DNA of 39,006 bases. Source: a virus. The stretch covers positions 1-39,006 of IMG/VR virus record IMGVR_UViG_3300045051_000780; one strand, given 5' to 3'. Each line of letters starts with the position of its first letter. Position 1 is the first letter of the stretch. Made by a program: the position numbers and the translations under genes. The notes under the pieces were generated by a model. The model was not told the DNA's origin. It worked only from the letters and a program-made list of their open reading frames with translations, and did no database searches. Positions 1 to 27,475 of the stretch are shown here, piece by piece.

Positions 1-199
1 AGAGCTGCCGGCCAAGGCTACTTTTGCCACTTCCCGAGGGGCCAACGATGACGCCGATCTGCCAGCCAGGTTCGTCAACGGGCAGGGCCGCCGAAATGCT
101 AAAATTGGCGCCGCTTTCTACATTGAACAGGCTTTTGACACGAGCCGCTCGATACGAGCTGAATTCCCTGCAGCTGTGGTGGACGGTAACTTCTTTCAT
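1..199 (-). CDS. ABC-type ATPase, N-terminal part, possible Mom-like DNA-modification enzyme (cut by window edge)
   Basis: Sixty-six codons are visible before the window ends. A Walker A loop, GPSGSGKS, sits at residues 53-60, preceded by a short beta-rich stretch as in ABC-type ATPases. The ATG overlaps the stop of the upstream small gene (ATGA), so translation is coupled. The locus follows a Com-like gene, the place where Mu carries mom, whose product is a GNAT-fold DNA-modifying enzyme. A known family (COG2401) fuses an ABC ATPase to an acetyltransferase domain. My inference is that this gene is such a fusion and replaces mom, but the C-terminal part that would prove it is not in the window. 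Confidence 0.6.
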   Translation of the reverse strand, partial: MKEVTVHHSCREFSSYRAARVKSLFNVESGANFSISAALPVDEPGWQIGVIVGPSGSGKSSLGRQL

Positions 200-396
200 A
201 CGGCCACCACCTTGCAGCGGTATCCCTGCCGGCGCAGGGCCTCATAGACTTCAACGTGGTGGCGTTCGTCAGTGCAGAGCACAACGACACCAAACTTCGG
301 CCGGTACTTGAAACCGTTACGTCCCGGGGCTTTTGTTTCTGGTGGTTGCGGATGCTCCACGATCGTCTCCTCTTTCAGACGCTCGTGGGCGTTCAT
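196..396 (-). CDS. small protein overlapping com and the ATPase gene
   Basis: This 66-residue protein is not recognised. It starts 80 bases inside com in another frame and ends in the ATGA that starts the ATPase gene. A predicted strand-rich core (FGVVVLCTDERHH) and a basic helix (VYEALRRQGYRCK) suggest a small alpha/beta fold. There is no convincing Shine-Dalgarno sequence before its ATG, which suggests its translation depends on ribosomes finishing com. Overlap of com with the next gene is also the arrangement in Mu com-mom. It may be a partner of the ATPase; the function is unknown. Confidence 0.65.
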   Translation of the reverse strand: MNAHERLKEETIVEHPQPPETKAPGRNGFKYRPKFGVVVLCTDERHHVEVYEALRRQGYRCKVVAV

Positions 397-517
397 GGCA
401 GGGGCGCTCGGCCCTCAAGATATTTAGCGCCCCACAACGTGGGCACTTGATAGAAAGGCTGACAAAATCAGCCTCGGCAAGTTTTCGGTCACACTTCCCG
501 CATCGGATTTCCTTCAT
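317..517 (-). CDS. com: Com-like zinc-finger translational regulator
   Basis: The protein is 66 residues long, starting at the ATG that has an AAGGAGG Shine-Dalgarno sequence seven bases upstream; longer in-frame starts lack this. The N-terminal 35 residues carry a four-cysteine zinc site (C6, C9, C25, C28; MKEIRCGKCD, then IKCPRCGALNI) very like phage Mu Com. Mu Com binds the mom mRNA and opens its ribosome site. The rest is basic and Ser/Arg-rich, and the last 80 bases overlap the next gene. Upstream lie a perfect palindrome and a hairpin-rich leader. It likely controls expression of the two downstream genes. Confidence 0.85.
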   Translation of the reverse strand: MKEIRCGKCDRKLAEADFVSLSIKCPRCGALNILRAERPCHERPRASERGDDRGASATTRNKSPGT

Positions 518-3106: not shown

Positions 3107-4890
3107 CACCCCACCTTGAGCACTTCGATGCTTTGCCAGACTGCCGGGCGGCGCACACTCACCACGCACCGGGCCACCATCCCGCGCCAAGGCGTGGACT
3201 CCTGGATTTCAACCACCTTGCCGGGGGTCAATAGCCCAGGGTTTTCCATCAGCGGCAGGGGTAGGGTGTTGCGTTCCCTGGTCAGATTGTCGGCCAGGAT
3301 TCTGGCGCCCCGTCCCGTCGCCGGCGTAATGTCGGTCAGCAGCGCGTCCACCACATCCGGCGCGGTTTTCGACCCATCGGTCCCGGCCCGCCGGATCAGC
3401 GCGTTGACCCCTATCGACTCCCCACGGACCCAGACGCCGTTGAAATCTCCCCGGCGCTCCAGCGCCCACGGTTTTTGCTCGATCATCGCCGGCGGGATGA
3501 TGGCGTCAACAATCATCCCACCCCACTGCCACGGCAGGGTCGACCACCAGGGCGCCACCGCCAGCACGGTATCCCAGGGATGCGACTGCACGCAGGCGCC
3601 GCCGGCTTCGGCAATCCGGGTGACGATGGCCATGGGAGTCTGATTCTGCCAGGTCATGGCTCCGGCCGGGACGAGCCAGTCGGGGGCGGTCCAGACGGTG
3701 GTCCATGAGGTGTTGGCCAGCTCCGCCTCGGCCAGCTGCCGGGACGTTCCCGCCCCGCACGGCGCCGTAATGCCGCTGGCGTAGGGTGCGGCCAGCGCCG
3801 CCGACAGCGAGCGGCCGCGCACCGTCCCCACGCTTCCGCCGAACTTCTCGGTCGCGCCAAACTCTTCGATAAAAAAGCGCCAACGGAAGCCGTTAATCGT
3901 GGCTTCAACAGCAATTGGAATGCCGTTGATCGGCCGCAGCAACGCCAGGTCGGATGCCTGGAGCACCCCGGCGGACAGCGACCAGCACCACGCATCGCGG
4001 TCCGCCGAGATCTCCATGGAGTCGATGGCAATGTCATAGTTGCTGCTGATGATCTTGAGGCTGACCGTATTGACCATCAGATAGCTCCTGCGCAGAAACG
4101 GGCGGGGGATGACCCAGCGCCGCGGCCGATACCAGTAGGCATCCTTCGGACCGGTTTGCACGCCGCCGACACAGCGGATCGGCCAGCCGGCACTGGAGTC
4201 CGTAAAGAGCAGTGCGTCGCCGGCAGGCGGTGTGTAGCTTGCCGTGCCGTTCCAGAACAGCGCGTCGCCATAGACCCGGCGTTCCAGCCGCCAGCAATAG
4301 CGCGGGATGTACTCTCGGCCCCAGACGATTTCATTGACGGCGTCGACAACCTCCGGGATTTCCCAACCGGAACCGTGCAAGAGATCCAGCCAGAGAACAT
4401 CGACAAAGCCGAGAACCCTCGCCTGATCGCGAGCCATCGCCTTGGCATAACCAACGTCGGCCGCGCGGTTGAGTATGCCGGCCTGCTGCCATGGCTCGTT
4501 GCGGCTGCCGTCGAGCGGCCGGCCGTATTGCCAGCCGGAAGGTTTAAAAGTTTCCAGCGCCGGGGGGACCGCCCACGACATCGAGGCAGCACCGTCAAGG
4601 ACCGCCGGGCGGTCCCACGAGAGGCCGAGAGCTTCGTCCGTCCCGCCCACAGAAGTCCAGGGAAAGCAATACCCGGCGCGTTTCTGGCCCGCCGCGCGCC
4701 ATGCGCCACGGCGGGAAAACGACCGGTTCTCTTGCCGGCCGAACGGGCAGCGGACCAGGCCGCGCAGGCTGCCTGCCGGCAAGTCGATCGGCGGCTTGCC
4801 GTCGAAGAGCAGCTTGTCTCCCGCCGGGGCGAGATAGGTGCCGAGCGCATAGTAGTTAAGCGCATTGCCTGCGGGCGCCACATAGGCCAT
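3106..4890 (-). CDS. large tail tip / baseplate hub-like protein
   Basis: A 594-residue protein. The N-terminal ~120 residues include two repeated short motifs (YLAPAGDKLLFDG and SYTPPAGDALLFTD at about 19 and 217). Residues ~270-594 read like phage hub proteins, with strands such as VNTVSLKIISSNYDIAIDSM followed by a long beta/alpha region. The gene lies between tail genes and precedes several tip genes. Hub proteins of this kind seal the tail tube end and carry the fibres. The exact homology is not established here. Confidence 0.65.
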   Translation of the reverse strand: MAYVAPAGNALNYYALGTYLAPAGDKLLFDGKPPIDLPAGSLRGLVRCPFGRQENRSFSRRGAWRAAGQKRAGYCFPWTSVGGTDEALGLSWDRPAVLDGAASMSWAVPPALETFKPSGWQYGRPLDGSRNEPWQQAGILNRAADVGYAKAMARDQARVLGFVDVLWLDLLHGSGWEIPEVVDAVNEIVWGREYIPRYCWRLERRVYGDALFWNGTASYTPPAGDALLFTDSSAGWPIRCVGGVQTGPKDAYWYRPRRWVIPRPFLRRSYLMVNTVSLKIISSNYDIAIDSMEISADRDAWCWSLSAGVLQASDLALLRPINGIPIAVEATINGFRWRFFIEEFGATEKFGGSVGTVRGRSLSAALAAPYASGITAPCGAGTSRQLAEAELANTSWTTVWTAPDWLVPAGAMTWQNQTPMAIVTRIAEAGGACVQSHPWDTVLAVAPWWSTLPWQWGGMIVDAIIPPAMIEQKPWALERRGDFNGVWVRGESIGVNALIRRAGTDGSKTAPDVVDALLTDITPATGRGARILADNLTRERNTLPLPLMENPGLLTPGKVVEIQESTPWRGMVARCVVSVRRPAVWQSIEVLKVG

Positions 4891-26912: not shown

Positions 26913-26998
26913 CCCTAACCAATCGCCGAGTTGACGGGATATGCGGTCTTGCCCACATCGGCGCTCGGTGGCCGCAACTCAGCTCCAAACCGTTAGAG
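26913..26998 (-). repeat. attC-like recombination site C
   Basis: On the minus strand it starts CTCTAACGGTTTGGAGCTGA and ends AACTCGGCGATTGGTTAGGG, 86 bp. Arms GAGTTG and CAACTC are complementary. The inner GCAAGACCGC is shared with sites A and B (GCAAGACCG). The 5' core covers the methyltransferase stop. The 3' end GTTAGGG departs at one base from GTTRRRY. Confidence 0.7.
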
Positions 26999-27475
26999 GG
27001 CAATGAACCGGCCAGCCAGCTTGCACCGCTTCAAAACCTCGGCATTCTGCTCGCCATACGCGATCAGCACAGATGGCCCGCCAGAGTTTGCCCGCGCACG
27101 CCGGCCGCAGACGTGGTGAAAATGCAGCCGCCCTTCCAGAAAAAGGATTGCCGATGCTTTCGGCCAGACATGATCGAAGAACATCCGCGTTTCTGTCCTC
27201 GCGAACACCAGCGCAATCGCGTCGCCGTGGTCTGCGCACCTCGCCAGCCAGACTCCGGTTTGCTCACCGTATGGCGGATTGCACCACACCCGGCCGCGCC
27301 ACGGCTTTTTCAGCCCGTTGTCCAGCACAGTGTAGTGCTGCGCCGCTGTCGGCCAGGGGCGGTCAATCGGAGCGCACGGATCCAGATCAAACGGCCCCAG
27401 CGCATCCATAATTTCAGGAGGCGTCAGCCATTCGTCTTTTTGCATCTTCGCGCTCTGGTGCCCGCCTATGCTCAT
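26993..27475 (-). CDS. phage-type DNA N6-adenine methyltransferase (cassette gene)
   Basis: A 160-residue protein. EWLTPPEIMDALGPFDLDPC near residues 15-34 and WCNPPYGEQTGVWL near 64-77 carry the TPP, DPC and NPPY marks of the phage Dam family (PF05869-like). It would methylate adenine in short sites, using S-adenosylmethionine. It starts within 12 bases of an attC end and stops in the next one, so it is a complete cassette. Its modification may shield the phage from host restriction. Confidence 0.9.
   Translation of the reverse strand: MSIGGHQSAKMQKDEWLTPPEIMDALGPFDLDPCAPIDRPWPTAAQHYTVLDNGLKKPWRGRVWCNPPYGEQTGVWLARCADHGDAIALVFARTETRMFFDHVWPKASAILFLEGRLHFHHVCGRRARANSGGPSVLIAYGEQNAEVLKRCKLAGRFIAL

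Follow-up and report, generated by a model that had tools for sequence, protein, structure and literature searches.

A Com-controlled operon encoding a predicted ABC ATPase–GNAT enzyme is a probable mom analogue in a Mu-like phage

Introduction

Com, a zinc-ribbon translational activator, binds a CC(N)2-3GAG motif within a hairpin loop adjoining the structure that hides the mom GUG, and its SELEX consensus is GAGNNCC(N)2-3GAGNNCC (PMC6483171). A GNAT domain coupled with an ABC ATPase was earlier predicted to make an acyl modification of a DNA base, and PMC7824862, citing Iyer et al., gives Tenacibaculum phage pT24 as an example of this predicted ABC ATPase–GNAT system. We recovered pT24 as a homologue in our ABC-GNAT searches.

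Here we describe an operon of a Mu-like phage that is probably an analogue of mom, in which tail, ABC-GNAT and (in most relatives) formyltransferase genes would be expressed late under Com control and are predicted to acylate a DNA base as a defense against restriction. The operon structure, the Com RNA site, the exchange with Mom, the exclusive donor genes and, in relatives, the domain make-up were all computed.

Results

Genes of the operon in a Mu-like phage

The window, which is the whole virus record of 39,006 bases, comes from a Mu-like phage by gene content (transposase, MuB-like protein, terminase, portal, tape measure, GemA and Gam). The operon is placed beyond the tail genes, at the Mu right end, and consists of the following features:

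1–199, minus strand: ABC-GNAT gene (phrog_11143), N-terminal 66 aa with Walker A motif GPSGSGKS; the rest lies off the contig and is described from relatives
196–360, minus strand: tail protein gene (phrog_28816, E 1e-20), 54 aa from GTG 360 (66 aa if ATG 396)
317–517, minus strand: com, encoding a 66-aa zinc-ribbon translational activator (PF10122; CxxC...CxxC), with Shine-Dalgarno AAGGAGG upstream
367–372, minus strand: Shine-Dalgarno GAGGAG of the small gene, read from the sequence
379–392, minus strand: proximal Com-type RNA hairpin ACGC-CCACGA-GCGT (hairpin scan; helix 3 of the covariation alignment)
402–414, minus strand: distal Com-type RNA hairpin GGGC-CGAGC-GCCC, part of the bipartite site (helices 1-2 of the covariation alignment)
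533–549, no strand: perfect inverted repeat GTCAAAA-TAG-TTTTGAC, just upstream of the com Shine-Dalgarno

The com product matched Pfam PF10122 (Zn_ribbon_Com) with an E of 2e-15 and 56.4 bits (cutoff 22.9). The ORF for the small protein runs from 396 to 196 on the minus strand and encodes 66 aa. GTG 360 is the favored start codon, because it is preceded by a perfect GAGGAG Shine-Dalgarno, it places the small-gene start 157 nt after the com start (mostly 157–163 nt in relatives), and its 54-aa product equals the length of the phrog_28816 model (54). The small gene thus most likely starts at GTG 360 and encodes 54 rather than 66 aa. It overlaps com by 44 nt (80 nt if ATG 396) and the ATPase gene by 4 nt (ATGA). 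An earlier note, made from the sequence alone, had listed a Com-like regulator, a 66-residue protein and an ABC-type ATPase as overlapping genes; the genes and their overlaps were confirmed on the minus strand, but the small protein is probably shorter than stated. We rejected an identical 80-nt overlap in com/mom and com/small gene as a start-codon artefact, since the Mu mom GTG lies at 2908 of its locus (L197) and the start in the window is likelier to be 360.

The inverted repeat at 533–549 occurs once in the window and not in shuffles, and is absent from all other fetched loci; it is a possible operator. The phage also has its own Dam-type adenine methyltransferase (26993–27475; PF05869). 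In Mu, host Dam is required for mom transcription.

Fusion of the ATPase to a GNAT domain in relatives

The ATPase ORF (199–2, minus strand) encodes 66 aa, including GPSGSGKS, and is open at the contig end. Because the contig stops at base 1, the remainder of the gene is unreadable from the window, and viral contigs scanned with an exact pattern for the DNA left of base 1 gave no match. Pfam P-loop matches were sub-threshold because the fragment has only 66 aa. About 20 viral loci matched it at 55–77% identity over nearly its whole length, and its full-length relatives are about 370–400 aa long, all belonging to phrog_11143. By Pfam, these relatives carry a complete ABC ATPase and a C-terminal GNAT in one polypeptide, of which the window covers the N-terminal 66 aa alone. 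In an AF2 model of one relative (pLDDT 85.6), residues 1–205 have an ABC fold (MalK, Z 14.5) and residues 204–369 a GNAT fold (1y9k, Z 14.4). Walker A, the LSNGE signature, Walker B DE and the H-loop are conserved. The fusion to an acetyltransferase considered in the earlier note is therefore borne out by the relatives, and since these carry a C-terminal GNAT, the ATPase is very probably not of the plain transporter type. Among the conserved neighbors (tail/ParB, Com and formyltransferase), no permease was found as a membrane partner of an ABC transporter.

Searches for ABC-GNAT gave at least 583 viral matches and 316 matches in one-per-species prokaryote genomes. Isolate carriers include Pseudomonas phage Komp_PAO1_1 and phages of Gordonia, Porphyromonas, Leptospira, Aeromonas and Lactococcus.

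Conserved partners and alternative donor genes

To count operon partners, we used 175 ABC-GNAT entries from which near-duplicates had been removed, with a few split genes counted twice. The tail lies immediately upstream of ABC-GNAT in 163 of the 175. Com is present in 76 entries and ParB in 52, and the two never co-occur; they are alternative upstream partners of the operon. Elsewhere the tail forms the C-terminus of ParB proteins, and in com-type loci it stands alone as a small protein. ABC-GNAT is also present in each of the 14 phage records that have a tail match. The conserved parts of the operon are thus the small tail protein, ABC-GNAT and, in most loci, an adjacent formyltransferase. 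In Porphyromonas phage008a (L030), the tail protein at 3870–3998 is annotated as 'acr candidate'; its phrog_28816 match and its position before ABC-GNAT suggest that this label is misplaced.

A formyltransferase gene, mostly overlapping the ABC-GNAT stop codon, adjoins ABC-GNAT in 126 of the 154 loci that have at least 450 nt of downstream DNA (56/70 for com-type loci). Its best sequence match is the hydrolase domain of 10-formyl-THF dehydrogenase (FDH, ALDH1L1; E 8e-24), and the fold of its model agrees (FDH hydrolase domain, Z 28.8; Fmt, Z 28.1; PurN, about 20). The Asn of the catalytic NxH motif of PurN and Fmt is absent from all 150 sequences, and 113 of them have GxH. His and Asp are invariant in a 28-row alignment and common to the phage enzyme and ALDH1L1, but the phage enzyme stands alone, without the carrier and dehydrogenase domains of ALDH1L1. 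In FDH, the hydrolase domain hands the formyl group on to the thiol of phosphopantetheine. By analogy, the phage formyltransferase may produce formyl-CoA, although FDH-like transferases could also formylate something other than CoA.

The Jace branch has no formyltransferase. There, ABC-GNAT is followed either by PanD (PF02261, E 2e-33) and a short homologue of class III CoA-transferases or by that homologue without PanD; this CoA-transferase has only 227 aa, matching the N-terminal part of its family. The two sets of donor genes, formyltransferase and PanD/CoA-transferase, are mutually exclusive, and we read both as acyl-donor supply. Distant loci, searched for other donor genes, showed no clear candidate.

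A Com-type RNA site common to mom and ABC-GNAT operons

In the window, the loop of the proximal hairpin lies 28 nt before the GTG 360 start. A hairpin counted as Com-type if its loop read C-NN(N)-GA and its stem had 4 bp or more. Of 71 com-type loci, 57 have one at 10–80 nt ahead of the tail start, compared with a mean of 2.6 (max 8) in shuffles and 0–7 at nine other offsets. The relaxed bipartite SELEX motif was found in 49/71 com-type loci and in about 0.1 in shuffles. In a structure-blind alignment, eight pairs were 91% paired, and seven of them showed double changes. The covariation score was 0.445 versus at most 0.094 when the structure was slid, the structure having been drawn from one row, which somewhat favors the unslid count. 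The overlapping com coding sequence may explain some of the conservation of the site, but not the covariation.

We then built a covariance model (R1) from 18 ABC-GNAT leaders, including the window, which as a training sequence is matched at 361–416 on the minus strand. R1 recovered com-mom leaders in five loci, namely L247, JD024 (L230/L248), L240 and L249, with E from 7e-14 to 8e-8. It also matched 33 of another 39 com-type loci, some of them close to training rows. Its match to Mu's own Com site was weak (10.4 bits, E 0.26), and at the corresponding site in ParB-type loci it gave no match (0/35). Rfam had no match for the Com-type leader RNA. Because the hairpins covary and R1 recovers com-mom leaders, the Com switch is common to mom and ABC-GNAT operons. 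Pseudomonas phage JD024 (L230) has an unannotated com with two Com-type hairpins, about 150 nt upstream of its annotated mom start.

The start region in the window folds well (z -2.5 to -3.1); the family mean was no different from that of an ABC-start control, and a family-wide start-hiding hairpin was not supported over controls.

Exchange with Mom at one locus

In P. gingivalis phage012a, a PF25680 Mom lies exactly where phage008a has tail-ABC-GNAT-formyltransferase. The flanks of the two phages are 88% identical over 3.1 kb on the left and 83% over 94 nt at the right end, and both phages are without Com. The last tail gene and the cassette of phage008a are separated by a stretch with a long inverted repeat (about 3630–3790), a possible switch or boundary. 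ABC-GNAT and a Mom gene occur together in Aeromonas phage PX29 (L034, L234), indicating that the two are not strictly interchangeable.

By the tests run, the GNAT is not recognizably of the Mom family. Pfam Mom (PF25680) had no match in the GNAT parts of three relatives, and hhalign of GNAT against Mom was not significant (probability 0.4%, E 0.15). Mom (8bv8) is not among the fold matches listed for the ABC-GNAT model, which is evidence neither for nor against kinship. The idea of an ATP-driven version of Mom, raised in the earlier note, thus holds for the mom slot, the Com/RNA switch and the exchange in P. gingivalis, but not for descent from Mom. The new DNA modification suggested in that note is plausible.

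Discussion

We infer a DNA substrate, a role for ATP, an acyl group and protection of the phage DNA. Late in infection, Com would be made first and would bind its own mRNA at the two C-NN(N)-GA hairpins, opening the region around the tail gene's start. Translation would then pass via the overlapping start and stop codons to ABC-GNAT and on to the formyltransferase. The tail protein, or in other phages the ParB carrying the tail, would be an obligate partner that probably helps to present DNA. A dimer of the ABC ATPase would use ATP to hold or remodel the DNA, and the fused GNAT would move an acyl group from an acyl-CoA onto a base's exocyclic amine. The acyl donor would come from the product of the downstream gene: usually the FDH-like formyltransferase, with formyl from 10-formyl-THF, perhaps via the CoA thiol, and in the other branch PanD with the class III CoA-transferase. 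The resulting modification would protect the phage's DNA against restriction in the way that Mom does.

A more specific version can be put forward only tentatively. The FDH-like enzyme might make formyl-CoA, with which ABC-GNAT would formylate the base amine. Because branches swap donor genes (for example, to give beta-alanyl-CoA), one ATP-driven enzyme family could then write several acyl marks under a portable Com module.

GNATs acetylate proteins and small molecules too. It is conceivable, though unlikely, that the acylation target of ABC-GNAT is a protein of the host or the phage, such as RNA polymerase or a restriction enzyme. By structure the domain matches a generic GNAT, and phage GNATs such as Rac have been reported to modify RNA polymerase (PMC7824862). 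The Com control held in common with mom, the exchange with Mom at one locus and the ParB-domain partner point instead to DNA. We give still less weight to the GNAT being a cryptic, fast-evolved Mom member, so that the operon would be Mom plus an ATPase, making the same or a similar carbamoylmethyl-adenine. The slot and the regulator are those of mom, and the only overlap found by hhalign places HHYL of ABC-GNAT against HYS of Mom, both past the first helix; however, neither that alignment nor PF25680 gave significant support, as described above, and Mu mom has no adjoining formyltransferase.

It is very improbable that the gene in this phage is truncated or decayed without a GNAT, or encodes a plain ATPase. 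The contig end interrupts the gene, and the version in one relative (L005) ends early, but the N-terminus is intact and closely resembles the full-length fusions (55–77% identity, as above), and the expression signals are intact. We favor a mom analogue that would attach a formyl-derived or other acyl group to a DNA base.

This reading links a phage enzyme predicted to modify DNA with the well-known Com/mom switch and supplies its missing partners and a testable acyl donor. The cultured phages that carry ABC-GNAT, among them Komp_PAO1_1, Sisko and Jace, are places to seek a new base. Com control would be a module able to drive different modification enzymes, and the covariance model can find more of them.

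The enzyme type itself is a known prediction, because ABC-GNAT base modification is already stated in PMC7824862: the system predicted by Iyer et al. has the same architecture as here, and DNA acylation was predicted for it. The prediction text in PMC7824862 does not mention Com control, a tail partner, a formyltransferase or PanD/CoA-transferase. The literature searched mentions no formyltransferase or Com link, and the original paper of Iyer et al. may note some of these. What is apparently new here is the Com control, the tail partner and the swappable donor genes (FDH-like formyltransferase, or PanD with CoA-transferase). The operon resembles Mu com-mom in its Com regulator, its covarying Com-type hairpin site, its overlapping genes and its right-end position. 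It differs from com-mom in that its GNAT is of another family and is fused to an ABC ATPase, and in the addition of a tail protein and usually a formyltransferase.
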